In this document: piece after piece, positions 1 to 25,571 of the stretch
Layout: every line of letters begins with the position of its first letter
Position numbering within the stretch: the first letter of the stretch is position 1
Assembly (NCBI RefSeq): GCF_003075435.1
Contig: NZ_QCZJ01000001.1
Location: forward strand, 248,001 to 312,000
Direction of reading: 5' to 3'
From: Terrimonas sp.
Lineage (GTDB): Bacteria > Bacteroidota > Bacteroidia > Chitinophagales > Chitinophagaceae
DNA: 64,000 bases
Notes under the pieces: generated by a model
Seen by the model: only the letters and a program-made list of their open reading frames with translations
Databases searched by the model: none
Told to the model about the DNA's origin: nothing
Made by a program: the position numbers and the translations under genes

Positions 1-619
1 TGTATACTTCTTTTTTGAAATTGGTTTCAAAAAGATAACCGCTACCCACAGCAATACCTAATGCAATTACCCTGTCTTTTGCTTTACCGGTAGCATCCTG
101 GTAAATAGCATAGCTGCTGTTTAAACCGCGCCCCTGTAAAAACATGCGGCGCAATGATGTACCGGATCCTTTTGGTGCAACCAGGAATACGTCCACATCT
201 TTGGGAGGAACAATGCCTGTTTGCTCGTTGAATGTTATACCAAAGCCATGAGAGAAATACAATGCTTTACCGGCAGTAAGATGCTTTTTAACAGTTGGCC
301 ATAACTCAATTTGTGCAGCATCGCTTAAAAGGTAGCAGATAATAGTGCCTTTCTCTAAGGCCTCTTCAATTTCAAACAAAGTCTCACCAGGAACAAAACC
401 ATCTTTCACAGCCTTATCCCAGGTTTTAGAGTTTTTACGCTGGCCAACAATTACATTAATACCGTTGTCTCTCTGGTTCAACGCCTGGCCAGGACCCTGA
501 ACACCGTATCCTATTACTGCAATCGTTTCGTTTTTTAATACTTCCTGGGCTTTGCTTAGCGGAAATTCGTCACGTGTTACTACGTTTTCCTCAACGCCGC
601 CGAAATTTAATTTTGCCAT
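1..619 (-). CDS. ilvC: Ketol-acid reductoisomerase, N-terminal part (gene continues past left edge)
   Basis: Catalyses the NADPH-dependent isomerisation and reduction of acetolactate or acetohydroxybutyrate, the second common step of valine and isoleucine synthesis. About 206 residues are visible, beginning MAKLNFGGVEENVVTRDEF. A Rossmann dinucleotide site follows (AVIGYGVQGPGQALNQRDNG) and then the loop VGQRKNSKTW that normally sets NADPH preference; DVFLVAPKGSGTSLRR matches the family core. The 3' half, including most metal ligands, is outside the window. The start at 619 lies 4 nt after the stop of the DinB-like gene, so the two are cotranscribed. It is the most distal ilv gene visible in the operon. 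Confidence 0.96.
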   Translation of the reverse strand, partial: MAKLNFGGVEENVVTRDEFPLSKAQEVLKNETIAVIGYGVQGPGQALNQRDNGINVIVGQRKNSKTWDKAVKDGFVPGETLFEIEEALEKGTIICYLLSDAAQIELWPTVKKHLTAGKALYFSHGFGITFNEQTGIVPPKDVDVFLVAPKGSGTSLRRMFLQGRGLNSSYAIYQDATGKAKDRVIALGIAVGSGYLFETNFKKEVY

Positions 620-1249: not shown

Positions 1250-1837
1250 CTACATCGAAAATACCTCATCCTGCTTATCCAGAAATTCATTTTCTACTAT
1301 ATCTGTTCCGGGTTTCTCTTCTTCAAATTCCCTCAGCTTTTCGTAGAAGCCGCTGCTGGCATTAATAATAGCCACTCTCGCGCTTCTTACAAATTCTATC
1401 AATCCCAAAGGCCCTAATACTTCAGTGAGTTTATTGATCTCTTCCCTGTGCCCTGATGTTTCAAATACGGTATAGTCCTTACGGATCACTACCGCTCTTG
1501 CACCATACTGGCGTAATAATCTTTCTACTTTAACATCTTCAATAACCTTATCGGTAGACACTTTATACAAAGCCAGTTCCTGCCAAACGATCTCCTCATT
1601 ATTATTATAATATGCTTTCAACACCTCTACCTGCTTTTCTATCTGGCGAACCAGTTTTTTTACTACTTCTTCCACTTCGTTAATAACAATCGTAAAGCGG
1701 TGTATACCTTCAACCTCAGAAGGAGAAGTATTGAGGCTTTCAATATTTATTTTTCTGCGGGAGAACATGATCGCAATGCGATTCAGCAACCCGATATGAT
1801 TTTCAGTATATACTGTTATGGTAAATTCCTGTTTCAT
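1250..1837 (-). CDS. ilvN: Acetolactate synthase small (regulatory) subunit
   Basis: Regulatory subunit that binds the catalytic IlvB subunit and confers valine feedback sensitivity. The N-terminal ACT domain (about residues 4-75) opens EFTITVYTENHIGLLNRIA and contains the conserved NIESLNTSPSE segment. The second domain contains YTVFETSGHREEI and GLIEFVRSARVAI. The length of 195 residues is longer than the E. coli small subunits and typical of the two-domain IlvH/IlvN form. It follows the methyltransferase gene by 18 nt and, unusually, is separated from ilvB by that gene. Confidence 0.95.
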   Translation of the reverse strand: MKQEFTITVYTENHIGLLNRIAIMFSRRKINIESLNTSPSEVEGIHRFTIVINEVEEVVKKLVRQIEKQVEVLKAYYNNNEEIVWQELALYKVSTDKVIEDVKVERLLRQYGARAVVIRKDYTVFETSGHREEINKLTEVLGPLGLIEFVRSARVAIINASSGFYEKLREFEEEKPGTDIVENEFLDKQDEVFSM

Positions 1838-2573: not shown

Positions 2574-4358
2574 TTATTTCAACCTGATCTCCGCTACACC
2601 ACAACCCTGCGGCACCATCGGGAATACATTATTTTCTTTACCTACCATTATTTCCAGCAGGTATGATCCTTTATGTTCCAGCATTTCCTGTAAAGAAGAT
2701 TTAAGGTCTTCACGTTTTGCAATGCTTTTTCCTGCAATGCCATAACCTTTGGCTACTGTTACAAAATCAGGACTGGTAATATTTACAAAAGAATACCTTT
2801 TATCGTGGAACAACTGTTGCCACTGGCGTACCATTCCGAGGAAATGGTTATTAAGAATGATGATTTTTACATCAACATCAAATTGCATAATAGTGCCTAA
2901 TTCCTGTAAGGTCATCTGGAAACCGCCATCCCCGATAATAGCTACTACTGTACGATCTTTTGCACCGAACTTAGCACCAATAGCCGCGGGCAACGCAAAG
3001 CCCATTGTACCTAACCCGCCGGAAGTTACATTGCTCCTTGTTTTATCGAACTTTGCATAACGGCAGGCTACCATCTGGTGCTGACCCACATCGGTTACGA
3101 TAACAGCACTTCCGTTGGTGAATCCGTTCAATACATTCAACACCTCTCCCATTGTCATTATCTCACAGGTTGGATGCAACTCATCTTTAATAACAGCATC
3201 TTCTTCTTCCACCAGCATTGTCCTGAATTTATTCAACCATTCTTTATGTTCTTTCTTTTCAATTAATGCCGTAAGCAGTGGCAGCGTTTCCTTACAATCG
3301 CCCCAAACAGGTACGGTTGCTTGTACGTTCTTATCTATTTCAGCAGGGTCAATATCCAGGTGAATCACTTTTGCCTGCTTCGCATATTTATCTAATCTTC
3401 CGGTTACACGATCATCAAACCGCATACCAACCGCAATCAATACATCACATTCATTGGTAAGCACATTCGGAGCATAATTACCATGCATGCCCAGCATACC
3501 AACGTTTAAGGAATGATCTGTTGGCAAAGCACTTAATCCCAATACTGTTGCTGCTGTGGGTAATCCTGCTTTTTCAATAAATGCTTTAAACTCTTTTTCA
3601 GCTTTTCCTAAAATAACTCCCTGCCCCAAAAGCACAAATGGCTTTTCGGCTTTATTAATTAATGCTGCTGCCTGCTGTATATACTCCTTGCGCACAATAG
3701 GCTTTGGGCGATAGCTGCGGATATGAGTACAGGGTTTGTATCCCTGGTAATCGAATTTCTGAACCTGCGCATTCTTGGTAATATCAATCAATACCGGGCC
3801 GGGTCTGCCGGTTTTGGCTATATAAAAAGCTTTGGCAAGGGCTGCCGGAATTTCGCTGGCATCTGTTACCTGGTAATTCCATTTGGTAACAGGTGTAGTA
3901 ATGTTTATCACGTCAGTTTCCTGGAAGGCATCCGTACCCAGCAGATGTGCAAACACCTGTCCGGTAATGCATACGACAGGGGTACTATCAATCTGCGCGT
4001 CTGCCAAACCGGTTACAAGATTTGTTGCACCTGGTCCGCTGGTGGCAAATACCACCCCTACTTTGCCGGAAGTACGTGCATAGCCCTGTGCGGCATGTAT
4101 ACCGCCCTGTTCATGTCGTACGAGGATATGATTGAGCTGATCATTATAATCGTAGAGCGCATCATATATAGGCATGATAGCGCCACCAGGATATCCAAAA
4201 AAATCAGTGACCCCTTCCGCGACCAATGCTTCCAGCACAGCAACGCTTCCACTGATGGAAGTATTGGCTTTTACTCTTACCTGTGATTGCGTTGTCGTTT
4301 CTTTACTCTCTGATTTTTTTGTTTTCATTGTTTCTGTTGCGCTACTCATGGTATTCAA
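2574..4358 (-). CDS. ilvB: Acetolactate synthase large (catalytic) subunit
   Basis: Thiamine-diphosphate and FAD enzyme that condenses pyruvate with pyruvate or 2-oxobutyrate. At 594 residues it has the usual three domains. The N-terminal PYR domain has GYPGGAIMPIYDALY and the catalytic glutamate in VRHEQGGIHAAQGYAR. The central FAD-binding domain has GMLGMHGNYAPN. The C-terminal PP domain has the ThDP motif GDGGFQMTLQEL followed by NNHFLGMVRQWQ. The first 25 residues (many Ser, Thr, Lys) are a poorly conserved leader, so an internal Met at residue 4 or 11 is also possible. It follows the ORF6N gene by 21 nt. Confidence 0.97.
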   Translation of the reverse strand: MNTMSSATETMKTKKSESKETTTQSQVRVKANTSISGSVAVLEALVAEGVTDFFGYPGGAIMPIYDALYDYNDQLNHILVRHEQGGIHAAQGYARTSGKVGVVFATSGPGATNLVTGLADAQIDSTPVVCITGQVFAHLLGTDAFQETDVINITTPVTKWNYQVTDASEIPAALAKAFYIAKTGRPGPVLIDITKNAQVQKFDYQGYKPCTHIRSYRPKPIVRKEYIQQAAALINKAEKPFVLLGQGVILGKAEKEFKAFIEKAGLPTAATVLGLSALPTDHSLNVGMLGMHGNYAPNVLTNECDVLIAVGMRFDDRVTGRLDKYAKQAKVIHLDIDPAEIDKNVQATVPVWGDCKETLPLLTALIEKKEHKEWLNKFRTMLVEEEDAVIKDELHPTCEIMTMGEVLNVLNGFTNGSAVIVTDVGQHQMVACRYAKFDKTRSNVTSGGLGTMGFALPAAIGAKFGAKDRTVVAIIGDGGFQMTLQELGTIMQFDVDVKIIILNNHFLGMVRQWQQLFHDKRYSFVNITSPDFVTVAKGYGIAGKSIAKREDLKSSLQEMLEHKGSYLLEIMVGKENNVFPMVPQGCGVAEIRLK

Positions 4359-5082: not shown

Positions 5083-6765
5083 TTAATCTTCATCAGTTAC
5101 ACATCCTTCACTCGCATCCTTCACTAATTTTGCATATTTATATAATACCCCGTTTTTCACTTTCAGCGCTGGTTTTGTCCAGCGTTTTCTTCTTTCAGCA
5201 ATTACCTGATCAGAAACTTTTAGCGTGATGGTATTTTTAACGGCATCCAGTTCAATGATATCATCATCTTCTACCAAACCAATCAATCCGCCTTCGTATG
5301 ATTCAGGCGTGATATGCCCTACCACAAATCCGTGCGTTCCCCCACTGAATCTTCCATCAGTAATCAAGGCAACTGACTTTCCCAGCCCTGCACCTATAAT
5401 AGCAGACGTTGGTTTTAGCATTTCAGGCATACCGGGCGCACCTTTGGGTCCTTCATTAATAATCACTACCACATCGCCTGGCTTTACTTTACCTGATGAT
5501 ATACCTTCAATCAATTTCTTTTCACCATCAAATACTCTTGCAGGACCTTCAAAACGTTCGCCTTCTTTGCCGGAAATTTTTGCGACACTTCCTTTTTCTG
5601 CAAGATTGCCGTAAAGGATCTGAAGGTGCCCTGTAGCTTTCAGGGGCTTTTCAAGCGGGTAAAGAATATCCTGCGTTTCAAAACTTATTTCAGTAATATC
5701 TTTAAGATTTTCGCCTAATGTTTTACCGGTAACCGTTAAGCAATCACCATGTAACAAACCTTTATTCAACAAATATTTCATTACTGCGGGTATGCCTCCG
5801 TGTGAGTGCAACTCCTGCATAAGATATTTACCGCTTGGTTTAAAATCAGCCAACACAGGTGTTTTATCACTTATTGCCTGGAAGTCATCCTGCGTTAATT
5901 CAACTCCTACACTTTTAGCCATTGCAATAAGGTGCAAAACAGCATTGGTACTTCCACCCAATATCATGATAACAGTTATAGCATTTTCAAATGCTTTCTT
6001 CGTCATAATATCTCTGGGCTTAATATCTTTTTCGAGTAAAAGCTTTATGGCTTTACCGGCATCAAGACACTCTTTCTTCTTATCACCACTGATGGCAGGA
6101 TTACTTGAAGAATAGGGCAAGCTCATTCCTAGTGCTTCAATAGCACTGGCCATCGTGTTAGCAGTATACATACCACCGCAGGCGCCCGCACCAGGACATG
6201 AATGTTTTACAATCTCTTTGAAATCACCATCCTCTAATTTACCAGCGATCTTTTGTCCCAGGGCCTCAAATGCAGAGATAATATTTAACTCCTGCCCCAT
6301 GTAATGCCCCGGGGCAATCGTACCACCATATACCATTATCGAAGGGCGGTTCAAACGGCCCATTGCCATGATACAACCCGGCATATTCTTATCGCAGCCC
6401 GGTATGGTAATCAGCCCGTCATAATAAAAGCCACCGCATACCGATTCAATACTATCCGCAATCAAATCGCGGCTTACCAGCGAGTATCGCATACCATCGG
6501 TACCATTACTAATGCCATCGCTGATGCCAATGGTATTAAAAATCAAGCCCACCAAATCATTATCCCACACACCCTTCTTTACCACTTTTGCAAGATCGTT
6601 CAGGTGCATGTTGCAGGTGTTACCATCATAACCCATGCTGGCAATACCTACCTGTGCTTTCTTCATATCATCGTCCGTCAGACCGATACCATATAGCATA
6701 GCCTGTGCCGCGGGCTGGGTTTCATCCTGTGTCAGTACCTTCGAAAACTTATTTAATTCTGCCAT
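5083..6765 (-). CDS. ilvD: Dihydroxy-acid dehydratase
   Basis: Iron-sulfur enzyme that dehydrates dihydroxy-isovalerate or dihydroxy-methylvalerate to the 2-oxo acids that IlvE aminates. Cluster ligands are visible in [22 protein letters not shown] and [15 protein letters not shown]. The motif [10 protein letters not shown] and the C-terminal [15 protein letters not shown] also fit. I place the start at 6765 ([13 protein letters not shown]), giving 560 residues, the usual length. The longer frame opening at 6813 would add 16 unconserved residues and overlap ilvE by 8 nt. Confidence 0.97.
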
Positions 6766-6805
6766 TTTTATATTATTATTCTTCGTTAGAAATTTTTCTA
6801 TGTGG

Positions 6806-7732
6806 TTATGCAAGGCTTTTTTCTTTACCTGAGCTATGCTTTATTGTTGCATCCGGTTCTTTTTCGATAATCAAATTTTTATATGCCGTCTGCACCTTTT
6901 TACTCACGGTTTCATTCCAGGATTTTTTAAACTTCACATTATCCAGGCTTTCCCAACCAATTACTTCAGCAGCTGTGCCACAGTAAAAAGCAGCATCAGC
7001 ATTTTTTAATTCATCTGCTTTAAACAATCTTTCTTCTACAGCTATACCCAGCTTTTTACAAATTTCAAAAACAGTTGCCCGTGTGATGCCAGGCAAAATA
7101 TTTCCCGGAGGCGGCGTAACCAATTTGCCATCTTTTTCAAAAAACATATTAGCGCCAGGGCCTTCGGCTATATTATCATTCATATCTGTTAAGAGCGCTT
7201 CGTCAAAACCTTTTGCCTTTGCCTCCTGGCTGGCCAATATGGAATTTACATAGTGCCCGGCAGCTTTTGCTTCTATCTTAAATCCCTTCGGGTTAGGCCG
7301 TTGAAAAGAAGAAGTCATTACTCTCAGCAATTTATCTCCCAGGAAGGGCGCCATTTCCCATGCTTCAATCACAATAAATGCTTCCGTATTCACCACAAAA
7401 CTCATATTTGCCGGGGCATAAACCACAGGGCGTATATATGCATCCTGGATATTGTTGCGTTTCAACACTTCGTATGTAGCAGCAATTAACTCATCTGTAT
7501 TCCACGTATACGGCAGGTTCATTGCCAGTGCAGAATTTTTCAGTCGCTCGTAATGCTCTACGGGTTTAAATATTTTCGTTTCGCCTTTTTCTGTTTTATA
7601 AGCACGAATGCCTTCAAAAACCGAATAGCCATAGTGAAATGACTGGCTATAGAAATCCATTTTTGCATCCGCGGCTTTTACAAAAGAACCGTTCAAAAAA
7701 ATTACCGTCGCATCATTGTAATAGGAAGCCAT
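6806..7732 (-). CDS. ilvE: Branched-chain amino acid aminotransferase
   Basis: Class IV PLP aminotransferase that makes valine, leucine and isoleucine from the 2-oxo acids. It has 308 residues. Recognisable parts are the [16 protein letters not shown] segment near residue 32, the PLP lysine in [12 protein letters not shown] near residue 155, [20 protein letters not shown] and the GTAAEVIGW cofactor loop. It is the first structural gene after the attenuator, 43 nt downstream of the terminator hairpin, so readthrough of that hairpin sets expression of ilvE and everything distal to it. Confidence 0.96.
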
Positions 7733-7774
7733 TGTGTTTGATTTAAAATGTTGAAATTATTATTGCTGTAAAAC

Positions 7775-7803
7775 AAAAAACCCGCCTCTTAAGGAGGCGG
7801 GTT
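7775..7803 (-). terminator. Attenuator terminator before ilvE
   Basis: On the minus strand, AACCCGCCTC and GAGGCGGGTT form a perfect 10-bp GC-rich stem (7803-7794 with 7788-7779) around a 5-nt loop, followed by a T-tract. It lies between the leader peptide stop and ilvE and has no other gene to terminate. A competing 9-bp pairing is possible between 7848-7840 (AGGGAGGTG) and 7799-7791 (CGCCTCCTT), which would consume the 5' arm. A small hairpin at 7860-7844 would protect the upstream strand when no ribosome is stalled. Confidence 0.88.
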
Positions 7804-7825
7804 CATATATTTTTAAGTATTTATT

Positions 7826-7924
7826 TTATATACAAATTACACCTCCCTGAATTGCAGGAATAATAATGACAACCACCACAAGGACTTTGCTGCTGACAAT
7901 ATTTAATATGCTGCGCTTCAACAT
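7826..7924 (-). CDS. Branched-chain amino acid leader peptide (attenuator)
   Basis: 32-codon open frame from ATG at 7924 to TAA at 7826. It begins MLKRSILN and carries SKVLVVVVIIIP at residues 12-23, so codons 14-22 are Val-Leu-Val4-Ile3. In total 20 of 32 residues are Leu, Val, Ile or Met. It sits 20 nt after a good promoter and just upstream of the terminator, as in classical ribosome-mediated attenuators. A ribosome stalled at the Val/Ile run would cover the protector hairpin at 7860-7844 and free the antiterminator strand. A ribosome reaching the stop would cover that strand and allow termination. It is too short for routine gene calling. Confidence 0.88.
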   Translation of the reverse strand: MLKRSILNIVSSKVLVVVVIIIPAIQGGVICI

Positions 7925-7926
7925 AA

Positions 7927-7960
7927 GTGAAATGTAATTATGTGCGAATATACATTTCAC
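7927..7960. promoter_or_regulatory. 10-bp dyad overlapping the ilvE leader promoter (candidate operator)
   Basis: GTGAAATGTA (minus strand 7960-7951) and TACATTTCAC (7936-7927) are perfect reverse complements separated by 14 nt. The dyad overlaps the -7 element and spans the expected start of transcription, the normal place for a repressor site. Which protein binds is unknown. It could instead be a 5' hairpin of the leader RNA, but only the distal arm lies clearly inside the transcript. Confidence 0.6.
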
Positions 7961-7975
7961 ATGCAAGAAAACAAA
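7945..7975 (-). promoter_or_regulatory. Bacteroidota-type promoter for the ilv leader transcript
   Basis: TTTG at 7975-7972, a 19-nt spacer, then TATATTCG at 7952-7945, one mismatch from the TAnnTTTG -7 consensus. The expected start at about 7939 gives a leader of roughly 15 nt before the leader-peptide ATG. The same TAnnTTCG variant appears upstream of leuA. Confidence 0.7.
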
Positions 7976-8009: not shown

Positions 8010-9125
8010 TTAGATTATCGTCGATTTTCTCAACTCCACATTTGACTGGTGAATATCTCCCGGCACTTTATTGCTAACGTATTCTACGATCAATTCTCCT
8101 ATAGTAGTGGTGAGATAAAAATTGACAGGATCAATGTCTTTTGTAACAAAATTGTGCTTGAGCGTCCAGTCAACTGCTTCTCTTACCAGGTCAGCTTCTG
8201 CATTTAATTTAAAATAGTCAAGCATCATTGCCGCGGACAAGATTGAACCCAGCGGATTTGCGATATCCTTTCCTGCTGCCTGCGGGTAAGAACCGTGGAT
8301 AGGCTCGAACAAGGCCGCACTGTTTCCTACAGATGCAGAAGGTAGTAAACCGAGAGAACCTGCTATCACACTTGCTTCATCACTTATAATATCACCAAAC
8401 ATATTCTCTGTAAGTATTACGTCAAATTGTTTCGGGTTCATAATGATCTGCATCGCGGCATTATCTACAAACATATAATCCACCGTTACATCGTGATATT
8501 GCTGCGCCAGTTCCTGCACTACTTTTCTCCACAGCCTTGACGTTTCCAATACGTTGGCTTTATCTACCAGCGTTAATTTTTTTCTGCGCCTGGCTGCATG
8601 TTGAAAAGCAAGATGCGCCACACGTTCTATTTCCTGCTCGGTATATACACATTCATCAATCGCCTGTGTTTTATCAGCACTTAATTCCTTTTTACCAAAA
8701 TAAATACCTCCTGTCAGCTCACGATAAATTACAAAATCAGTTCCCTCGCTGTTTTTTGCTTTGAGTGGTGAAAGATGCTGCAATGAAGCATAAGTAGCTA
8801 CCGGCCTAATATTGGCATATAATTGTAAACGCTGCCTTAGTTTCAGTAACCCTTGCTCCGGGCGAACAGTTGCAGCAGGGTCGTTATCATATTTGGGATC
8901 GCCAATGGCACCAAACAATACCGCATCACTATTTAAACATGCTTCTATTGTTTCATCAGGCAATGGGTTTCCTGTTTTATCTATAGCGATTGCCCCCATC
9001 AGGTTATAGCTGTAGTTAAACTCATGGGAAAAATTTTTGGCAACAGCGTTCAATACATTTATAGATTGCTGTGTTACTTCGGGTCCTATCCCGTCTCCAA
9101 AAATTACCGCTATATTCTTTTTCAT
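8010..9125 (-). CDS. leuB: 3-isopropylmalate dehydrogenase
   Basis: NAD-dependent oxidative decarboxylase of leucine synthesis, 371 residues. It starts KKNIAVIFGDGIGPEVTQQ and has LFGAIGDPKYD, the substrate loop LRQRLQLYANIRP, RELTGGIYFGKKE and the metal-site region TENMFGDIISDEAS, with the NAD-binding EPIHGSYPQAAGKDIANP. leuA lies upstream with a 179-bp spacer holding a palindromic repeat. leuC and leuD, which act between LeuA and LeuB, are not in the window. Confidence 0.96.
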   Translation of the reverse strand: MKKNIAVIFGDGIGPEVTQQSINVLNAVAKNFSHEFNYSYNLMGAIAIDKTGNPLPDETIEACLNSDAVLFGAIGDPKYDNDPAATVRPEQGLLKLRQRLQLYANIRPVATYASLQHLSPLKAKNSEGTDFVIYRELTGGIYFGKKELSADKTQAIDECVYTEQEIERVAHLAFQHAARRRKKLTLVDKANVLETSRLWRKVVQELAQQYHDVTVDYMFVDNAAMQIIMNPKQFDVILTENMFGDIISDEASVIAGSLGLLPSASVGNSAALFEPIHGSYPQAAGKDIANPLGSILSAAMMLDYFKLNAEADLVREAVDWTLKHNFVTKDIDPVNFYLTTTIGELIVEYVSNKVPGDIHQSNVELRKSTII

Positions 9126-23153: not shown

Positions 23154-25571
23154 TTATTTATCATCTTTTTCCAATATTTCAAAAACGCTGGTCAGCCGTT
23201 CCCCGCTTTCATCTACCAATGTAATAGTATGTTTGCCTGCCGCCGGGCTTAATGCCATCTGATGAAAATGTGTAGTGGTTCCTATATAATCATTATCCAG
23301 ATGCCAGAAAATTTTGCCCTCTGCTTTTTGATGCGCCGCGGTAAAAATAGTTTTCCCTTTGTCACCGCTGATCTCCGTTGGAACATAAATTTTCGCATTA
23401 GGTTCAGGATATATTAACTCCATCGGTTTATGACCCGCCACCACATCACAACCACTTTTAAAAGCAGGCACAGGTTTGTAATCAAGATGCCTGCGTTTAT
23501 AATACCATTCCATTACCGGCGGTAACATAAACCAGCTTTTATGAATCATTGCAGAAGGTGAAACACAATCTTCGGTTACCCGGTATTGTGAGGTCTGATC
23601 AAGATGGATGATACTGTGATAAGGACAAAGCGGAGCATTCACTCCCGCTGCAGGAGCGTTTAATGTATCGGTATCTGTGCAATCCATATTCGCTCTGAAA
23701 CCTGTTTGCCTGCATACCACAGTTTTTATATATTCCCCAGGTTCAGCAAACCACGGAGATGCAGGCAGGGTCCTCAATATATCAAACATGATGGGAGCCG
23801 CTGTTTGCACACCAATCAATCCTGGTCTGCCTTCACCATTGGTATTGCCCACCCACACAGCAATTACAAAACGTGGCGTTACGCCAACAGCCCATGCATC
23901 ACGAAAACCAAAGCTGGTACCGGTTTTCCATGCTATGCGCTGCGAAGAGCTGAATTGTTTCCATAAACCTTCTTCACCCGGCCGCATCACTTCTTCCATT
24001 GCCTGAAACATATACCATATTGAAACAGGGTCGAGATAATTTATCTGTGCCTTAGATGAATTACCCGGTTGCTCTCCCTTTTTTATATATACCGGACTGT
24101 GAAAATCAGCAGCCGATATTTTTCCTTTATTTTTTTTCGCATGGTTCAATGCTCTTGCCATACCCGCGTATACGCCCGCAAGCTCCCATGATGTAACTTC
24201 ACAGCCTCCCAGTATTAATGATAATCCATAATTATCTGCCGGCCGGTTCAGTGTTGTTATACCAACCTTCTTCAACACATCATAAAAACGCGGATACTTA
24301 TAGTCACGCAGCATACGCACTGCGGGCACATTTAATGAGCGCGACAATGCCTGCGATGCAGGTACAGCGCCATCATACTCCCTGTCAAAATTTTGTGGTG
24401 TATACCCTCCTATCTGTGTAGGAATATCCGGAATCAGTGTTTGCGGTAATAATAATCCATCATTCAGCATACAGGCGTATAGCAAAGGTTTCAACGCACT
24501 GCCCGGGCTCCTTGGCGCACGTATCACATCCACATGACTTTGCAGGTCTGCATTTTCCGGGTGATATACATTACCGACATAGGCTAAAGTATTTCCGCTT
24601 TCAACATCCAGCACAAGGGCGCAGGCATTCTTAATACCATTGCCTTTATAAATATGCTGATACTGATCTACAATTCTTGCAACATTGTTTTGCATATTAC
24701 CATTAATGGTCGTTTGAATAAGTGTTGCATTTCCTTTTTTATTCTCCTGCTTAAACCGCTGTAGCAAATGAGGTGCTAACTGTGGTAATGACTTCGGCTC
24801 ATCAGGCAAAGGTTCAAGCATGGCCAACTCATGTGTAGCAGCATCTATTTTTTGCTGAGCCAGCAGTTTATCTAACAGGGCGTTTCGCTTACGCAATAGC
24901 GCCGTTTTATTTTTGCCGGGATATACCAATGCTGGCGCATTAGGCAACACAGCCAGGGCTGCCATTTCTCCCCAGCTTAATTTATCTGCAGACCTTCCGT
25001 AATAACGCCATGCAGCCGCATCAAGCCCCACTATATTAGTGCCGAATGGCGCATTGGATGCATATAAAGCCAGTATTTCGCTTTTGGAGCAGGCTACTTC
25101 AAGCCTCACAGCCTGTATACTTTCAATTAACTTCTGAATGATGTTACGGTTCTTATTGCGCGATAATCTTATTACCTGCATCGTAAGCGTACTGCCGCCG
25201 CTCACTGTTTTGGATGAATTGAAATTTTGCCTCATTGCTCTTGCCATCGCCAATACATCCACACCCGGATGATAATAAAAACGTTTATCCTCAAACGTAA
25301 TAATACATTCCTTAAACTTTTCCGGCACTGAATCATTAAAAGGGAAGCGCCACTGCCCGTCTGTTGCTATGGTAGCGCCAAGCAGTTCGCCCTTATTATC
25401 TTCAATTACATAACTTGTGGGCGAATGAAATAATGGCTGCTGAAGACAAAACCAAAAGCATACAAACAACACTAATACAATACCCAAAAGAATTTTTGTT
25501 CTTCTTTTAAGATGGGTAATGCGACGAAACCACTCCCGGCCAATCCACAGCCCTCGCTTTTCAACGTTCAT
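23154..25571 (-). CDS. pbpC: Penicillin-binding protein 1C (bifunctional peptidoglycan synthase)
   Basis: 805 residues from MNVEKRGLWIG at 25571; the frame extends to 25622 only by translating a CTGCCGGCAG palindrome, so the later start is better. A basic stretch and one membrane helix (residues 27-46) anchor it. The GT51 glycosyltransferase domain has FEDKRFYYHPGVD and VSGGSTLTMQVIRLSR. The transpeptidase domain has the SxxK serine in SPGSALKPLLY, SLN in SRSLNVPAVR and KTG in AWKTGTSFGFRDAW. A C-terminal domain of about 90 residues matches the PbpC tail. It follows the alpha-2-macroglobulin gene, its usual genomic partner. Confidence 0.95.
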   Translation of the reverse strand: MNVEKRGLWIGREWFRRITHLKRRTKILLGIVLVLFVCFWFCLQQPLFHSPTSYVIEDNKGELLGATIATDGQWRFPFNDSVPEKFKECIITFEDKRFYYHPGVDVLAMARAMRQNFNSSKTVSGGSTLTMQVIRLSRNKNRNIIQKLIESIQAVRLEVACSKSEILALYASNAPFGTNIVGLDAAAWRYYGRSADKLSWGEMAALAVLPNAPALVYPGKNKTALLRKRNALLDKLLAQQKIDAATHELAMLEPLPDEPKSLPQLAPHLLQRFKQENKKGNATLIQTTINGNMQNNVARIVDQYQHIYKGNGIKNACALVLDVESGNTLAYVGNVYHPENADLQSHVDVIRAPRSPGSALKPLLYACMLNDGLLLPQTLIPDIPTQIGGYTPQNFDREYDGAVPASQALSRSLNVPAVRMLRDYKYPRFYDVLKKVGITTLNRPADNYGLSLILGGCEVTSWELAGVYAGMARALNHAKKNKGKISAADFHSPVYIKKGEQPGNSSKAQINYLDPVSIWYMFQAMEEVMRPGEEGLWKQFSSSQRIAWKTGTSFGFRDAWAVGVTPRFVIAVWVGNTNGEGRPGLIGVQTAAPIMFDILRTLPASPWFAEPGEYIKTVVCRQTGFRANMDCTDTDTLNAPAAGVNAPLCPYHSIIHLDQTSQYRVTEDCVSPSAMIHKSWFMLPPVMEWYYKRRHLDYKPVPAFKSGCDVVAGHKPMELIYPEPNAKIYVPTEISGDKGKTIFTAAHQKAEGKIFWHLDNDYIGTTTHFHQMALSPAAGKHTITLVDESGERLTSVFEILEKDDK

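Follow-up and report, generated by a model that had tools for sequence, protein, structure and literature searches.

We analysed a 64,000-nt stretch of DNA from Terrimonas sp. (assembly GCF_003075435.1, contig NZ_QCZJ01000001.1, positions 248,001-312,000 of the forward strand), referred to below as the window, in which leuB is followed on the minus strand by a series of ilv genes (Table 1). The identities of leuA, leuB, ilvE, ilvD, ilvB and ilvN were taken from NCBIfam, and those of ilvC and of ilvA, which follows ilvC outside the window, from reading their translations (locus L105). A first-pass annotation of this DNA was right about the distal ilv genes: ilvE, ilvD, ilvB and ilvN lie inside the window, ilvC at its edge, and then comes ilvA. 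Interleaved with them are genes for an ORF6N-domain protein (4970-4380), a SAM methyltransferase (2566-1856), and a DinB-like protein (1127-624).

Table 1. Coordinates of the leuB-ilvE spacer elements and of the neighbouring genes in the window.
Feature	Position	Strand	Remarks
leuB	8010..9125	minus	upstream neighbour of the leader; TIGR00169
Promoter	7945..7975	minus	-33 TTTG (7975-7972), 19-nt spacer, -7 TATATTCG (7952-7945)
Perfect 10-bp inverted repeat	7927..7960		GTGAAATGTA-N14-TACATTTCAC; spans the -7 box and the leader start region; candidate operator
Leader peptide gene, 32 codons	7826..7924	minus	V14 L15 V16-19 I20-22; ATG 7924-7922, TAA 7828-7826
Putative protector hairpin (region 1:2)	7844..7860	minus	compatible with the sequence; weak
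Region 2 (antiterminator 5' arm)	7840..7848	minus	AGGGAGGTG; inside the leader ORF; conserved GGAGGTGG
Region 3	7791..7799	minus	CGCCTCCTT; common to antiterminator and terminator
Intrinsic terminator	7774..7804	minus	11-bp stem 7804-7794/7788-7778 and T-tract
ilvE	6806..7732	minus	first gene of the putatively controlled unit; ATG at 7732; NF005146/TIGR01122 above cut-off
ilvD	5083..6813	minus	TIGR00110
ilvB	2574..4358	minus	TIGR00118
ilvN	1250..1837	minus	TIGR00119
ilvC (start)	1..619	minus	runs past the window edge; named by translated sequence (locus L105)

The short ORF in the leuB-ilvE spacer encodes the 32-residue peptide MLKRSILNIVSSKVLVVVVIIIPAIQGGVICI, in which codons 14-22 read V L V V V V I I I. 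With 7 Val, 8 Ile, and 3 Leu codons among its 32, it is a short ORF rich in branched-chain amino acid (BCAA) codons of the kind that characterizes ilv-type attenuators. When the spacer was shuffled 2000 times with its dinucleotides preserved, no short ORF arose that had nine Val, Ile, or Leu codons in a row, and among the 780 short ORFs (15-60 aa) of the whole window just three had a run of at least seven such codons, the leader alone having a Val/Ile run. The terminator downstream of it has arms at 7803-7794 and 7788-7779 (10 bp), extended by a G-U pair between 7804 and 7778, and a loop at 7793-7789; six T residues (7780-7775) are followed by GTTTT, and about 42 nt separate this T-tract from the ilvE ATG. 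The alternative pairing joins A7848..G7840 with C7799..T7791 through 9 bp, including two G-U pairs, and covers most of the terminator 5' arm. It was stronger than that of 99.5% of shuffled leader segments. The 32-codon frame, the terminator with its T-tract, and the 9-bp competing pairing had all been placed correctly in the first-pass annotation.

The promoter and the inverted repeat ahead of the leader

The promoter consensus of Bacteroidota is TTTG/TAnnTTTG. Its -7 part, TAnnTTTG, is described for Flavobacterium (PMC9723704). In the window, the arrangement TTTG-N19-TATATTCG sits 20 nt 5' of the leader ATG, and a corresponding one (TTTG 4/4, no fewer than 5/6 positions of the -7 box) is found ahead of the leader in 34/43 relatives, mostly within AGTTCTTTG...TATATTCG. 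As the frequency of the promoter pattern in the whole window was not above chance, the evidence for this promoter is its positional conservation. The presence of a conserved promoter directly before the leader indicates that the attenuator heads its own ilv unit, most likely a separate ilvE-D-B-N-C-A transcription unit, instead of lying in the middle of an operon. Thus, of the earlier proposal that the control point lies after leuB, inside the leu-ilv locus, the position stood, and the picture of an attenuator within an operon is best replaced by that of one at the head of a separate ilv unit. This promoter, and not the attenuator alone, would set the leuAB and ilv units apart; read-through from leuAB would also be caught, as a secondary effect. 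No Leu leader was seen upstream of leuA, where there is only a promoter-like site (10592-10563).

The -7 box is overlapped by the inverted repeat listed in Table 1, which was matched by none of 60 shuffles and occurs as a single copy in its own genome. It is kept in the genus of the window, and L007 has it with other letters (TTGAAGGATGT/ACATCCTTCAA); the change of letters with the symmetry kept suggests selection on the symmetry. It is possible that the repeat is an operator for a regulator. As a family-wide operator it was rejected, being strong only in the genus of the window, in near relatives, and in L007.

Conservation of the leader and of its RNA structures

The ilvE orthologues were gathered from whole genomes and GTDB contigs, which gave 54 loci. 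The expectation attached to the first-pass annotation, that relatives would carry a BCAA-rich frame and covarying stems, was borne out: a BCAA-rich short ORF and a terminator precede ilvE at 43 of the 54 loci (39 recognized by script and 4 by hand), and the terminator covaries. The remaining 11 loci (L010, L013, L014, L015, L040, L049, L050, L057, L062, L072, and L073) have no leader; the contigs of L013 and L014 stop after at most some 160 nt, and several of the others have leuB almost directly abutting ilvE. One of the four loci added by hand, L037 (2995-3124 and upstream), has ATA at the start codon, where its close relative L036 has ATG, and the rest of the element is intact, so that either initiation occurs elsewhere or control has been lost.

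With a covariance model, R1, built from Chitinophagaceae only, the element was found at E <= 1e-5 as one copy per genome in 120/246 Chitinophagaceae genomes, representing 61/103 genera. Of 34 loci that were inspected, 32 had leuB upstream; the first ilv gene downstream was ilvE in 22 and ilvD in 11. At L080 (genome G016, minus strand of the locus, ~1660-1560), the same leader and terminator precede a short ORF whose translation resembles an acetolactate synthase small subunit with an ACT domain; this leader is far from ilvE, and ilvE in that genome follows leuB without a leader.

The leader codons were examined in the ten-codon segment ending at the sensor run in 35 relatives. There were 312 Val, Ile, or Leu codons, as compared with 292 +/- 3 expected, and 3 Met codons, as compared with 22.3 +/- 2.9 expected; when the columns were shuffled independently, none of 500 shuffles was as extreme for either count. 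Within the leader codons of the relatives, second positions had the lowest entropy and third positions the highest. The retention of Val, Ile, and Leu, the avoidance of Met, and the variability of third positions thus indicate codon-by-codon change within the Val/Ile/Leu class, and, judged by these codon patterns, the leader ORF is under coding constraint. Leu codons in it are few and not conserved across relatives. The amino acids sensed would therefore be Val and Ile, and the Leu-Val4-Ile3 attenuator of ilvE and the distal ilv genes that had been proposed for this site is supported by the relatives as a Val/Ile one, without its Leu component.

With the relatives aligned on region 2 as an anchor, terminator pairing was retained in 95.7% of cells, with 36 compensatory cells, a number reached in 0/500 shuffles; a larger set of sequences gave 45. 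The outer terminator pairs alternate between A-U, G-C, and C-G. The antiterminator was paired in 81.8% of cells, as compared with 43-54% in slid versions. Its core is almost invariant, and compensation is limited to the outer pair (G-C, A-U, U-A; four cells in 66 sequences), presumably because the shared bases must match both region 2 and region 4. A core that stays fixed while the outer pairs covary freely would be what a two-way switch predicts. Moreover, in L068 one base has been lost after the Pro-Ala codons, so that the peptide ends with PAQTEVVFNV, and GGAGGTGG is intact; in L078 a stop codon occurs at region 2 (..IIIPVTN*), and GAGGTGG is retained. The motif is thus conserved as RNA. 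In L071, region 3 is shortened, and the pairing of regions 2 and 3 is nearly gone.

The protector hairpin is present at 7860-7844 as it had been drawn (7860-7855 with 7849-7844, 6 bp including one G-U), but the covariation among relatives that would support it is absent: its pairs are retained in 89-94% of cells, with a compensatory change at no pair. Its predicted formation was in slight excess over that in shuffled controls (0.69 vs. 0.59).

A predicted attenuation mechanism and its alternatives

The geometry of the element was compared with a ribosome footprint that was assumed to reach some 15 nt past the P site. In 29/36 relatives the last Val/Ile codon lies 15 nt ahead of region 2, so that region 2 would be only just uncovered by a ribosome stalled with this footprint. 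Counted from the first nucleotide of region 2, the stop codon of the relatives comes 6-19 nt later, and a terminating ribosome would therefore cover that region. From what was demonstrated of the element, namely its anatomy and geometry, its evolutionary constraint, and the conservation of its position and promoter, we consider it very likely to be a ribosome-mediated leader-peptide transcription attenuator for ilvE-ilvD-ilvB-ilvN-ilvC-ilvA, in which the stalling, the antitermination, and the response to amino acids are deduced from sequence. RNA polymerase would start at the promoter and transcribe the leader ORF. With both Val-tRNA and Ile-tRNA charged, the ribosome would pass V16-I22, reach the stop codon, and cover region 2, upon which the terminator (7804-7778) would form and transcription would stop. 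With Val or Ile in short supply, the ribosome would stall on the Val/Ile run, its footprint ending about where region 2 begins; region 2, left free, would pair with region 3 before the 3' arm of the terminator is made, and the polymerase would enter ilvE.

Folding predictions were made for the transcript in different states. In nascent RNA ending at region 3 under the stalled condition, pairing of regions 2 and 3 was predicted at 0.94 or higher in 34/36 relatives, the exceptions being L043 and L071. In the full-length RNA with nothing masked, the terminator won at equilibrium in 36/36, and thus the antiterminator could act only kinetically. In untranslated nascent RNA, region 2 was mostly predicted to be paired with region 3, so that, for an untranslated leader, the model accounts for tight termination only if the protector, which covariation does not support, is formed beforehand.

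That the hairpin merely ends the leuAB transcript, with the ORF arising by chance or from decayed sequence, would fit with the location of leuB upstream on the same strand and with operon-end terminators being common. However, leuB and the leader have a conserved promoter between them, the ORF is coding-constrained and of a kind that the spacer shuffles did not produce (0/2000), and leader and terminator stay coupled where ilvD follows and, in L080, where leuB is missing, which makes this explanation highly unlikely. It is also very improbable, in our assessment, that the ORF encodes a functional hydrophobic micropeptide beside which the terminator is incidental: the peptide is hydrophobic indeed, and what is kept is the Val/Ile/Leu class, not the exact residues, but its N- and C-terminal parts vary, the frameshift in L068 and the early stop in L078 alter the C-terminus while the RNA motif persists, no Pfam family was found for the window peptide at E <= 1, and it is placed before ilv genes.

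Two further explanations accept a switch but change what it acts on or what it senses. Control of ilvE translation through masking of its start would use the same short ORF, and translation initiation in Bacteroidota depends on unstructured starts; on the other hand, the hairpin of the switch has a GC-rich stem, runs directly into a T-tract, and lies about 42 nt from the ilvE start, and among relatives the terminator form and the T-tract are conserved, whereas the distance to the next gene is variable. We ascribe very little probability to it. Direct sensing by RNA or protein (through a riboswitch, a T-box, or a regulator that binds BCAAs), in which the ORF would be only a passenger, could draw on the palindrome over the -7 box, to which a regulator could bind in the genus of the window. 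Against it, no Rfam family in the window reached the gathering score, several of the weak matches are themselves leader attenuators, the interval from the ORF to the terminator is short and varies, and the palindrome is not conserved family-wide; direct sensing is thus hardly probable, and the palindrome may instead add a second layer of control without replacing the attenuator.

Comparison with known attenuators and with other Bacteroidota leaders

Searches of the window with Rfam at both gathering and permissive thresholds assigned no family; the best leader match was Phe_leader, with 25 bits as compared with a gathering threshold of 55, and the weak matches included Trp_leader and Thr_leader. 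The attenuator of E. coli ilvGMEDA with its leader peptide IlvL (L111) resembles the Terrimonas element in having a leader of 32 aa in which VVVIIIP immediately precedes the switch, and a GC-rich terminator with a T-tract ahead of Ile/Val synthesis genes. Moreover, model R1 matched E. coli ilvL with 33.1 bits (E 1.2e-4 in 8.8 kb), a score that is partly due to generic terminator features. The two differ in phylum and in location, the enteric element lying ahead of ilvX/ilvG and the Terrimonas one after leuB, and the latter is distinguished by the gene order ilvE-D-B-N-C-A, by its region 2 (GGAGGTGG) and terminator core (CCCGCCTCC), and by a protector that is not supported. We consider it unlikely that the Chitinophagaceae element and enteric ilvL share ancestry or were exchanged between phyla and did not converge, a reading for which the 32-codon leaders with sensors ending in VVVIIIP and the R1 match would speak; the V-V-V-I-I-I-P order may just as well reflect constraints that act on both, since the would-be protector stem contains the CC of the Pro codon.

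A comparative study by Lopatovskaya, Seliverstov and Lyubetsky (2010), cited in PMC4833913, may contain the earliest Bacteroidota predictions. For F. psychrophilum, of the same phylum, the authors of PMC9723704 report, in general terms, strong indications that amino-acid operons are preceded by leader-peptide attenuators, as well as structured 5' elements without an Rfam match, such as those of hisG and pheA; the main text contains no ilv case, sequence, or family-wide model. Putative leader-peptide ORFs were also noted in B. thetaiotaomicron (PMC7366714). The S. aureus ilv-leu leader (PMC5794164) likewise has a BCAA-rich leader peptide that controls BCAA synthesis genes, but it is Leu-rich instead of Val/Ile-rich, belongs to another phylum, and is combined with CodY. 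What the Chitinophagaceae have is a family-wide, well-conserved ilv attenuator outside Rfam; the kind of switch itself is textbook, not new.

Two further leaders were noticed in the genome of the window. A His leader, MIHTVHHHHHFLPQG, and a terminator precede hisG (L106; G000:C18, hisG 23944-24486), and bases of this leader pair with the terminator 5' arm. A Thr-rich short ORF, MVYSKRYNFSSSAIATAVDTIITTTTTTLS, precedes a thrA-like aspartate kinase gene (L107; G000:C2, 426080-427453), with no recognizable terminator between them.

In a phylum-wide model search at E <= 0.05, many weak matches were plain terminators, and the analysis was thus restricted to loci that also had a matching short ORF, their downstream genes being named by local comparison or by reading of translations. 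The leaders at these loci, which differ in sequence from the Chitinophagaceae element, included Ile-rich ones before ilvE, ilvN, and ilvA, Thr/Ile-rich ones before aspartate kinase genes, and His-rich ones before hisG. The Thr/Ile-rich ones at L083, L093, and L100 (e.g., MYNSTIIITIIITTGRNLAEE) resemble E. coli ThrL. Pairing of regions 2 and 3 was better than in 95% of shuffles in 8/14 cases, a set that includes the window, the hisG leader of its own genome, and E. coli. At L085 (genome G122), tandem Ile-rich short ORFs (..NIIIIIIVIIG and ..IIISIIIIVIIGIIDG) lie upstream of ilvE, possibly as two attenuators in series.

Leader-peptide attenuation needs tight coupling of transcription and translation, and was worked out mainly in Proteobacteria, whereas translation initiation in Bacteroidota proceeds largely without Shine-Dalgarno pairing. 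Since attenuation requires coupling and initiation in this phylum is Shine-Dalgarno-poor, a family-wide attenuator would be a simple natural reporter of coupling in Bacteroidota. It also supplies a large environmental family with a regulatory logic for its ilv genes, in which scarcity of Val or Ile is predicted to switch on their own synthesis. Taken together, the ilv, His, and Thr leaders in the Terrimonas genome and in other Bacteroidota suggest that leader peptides are a standard means of controlling amino-acid synthesis in these bacteria, one that is not captured by Rfam.
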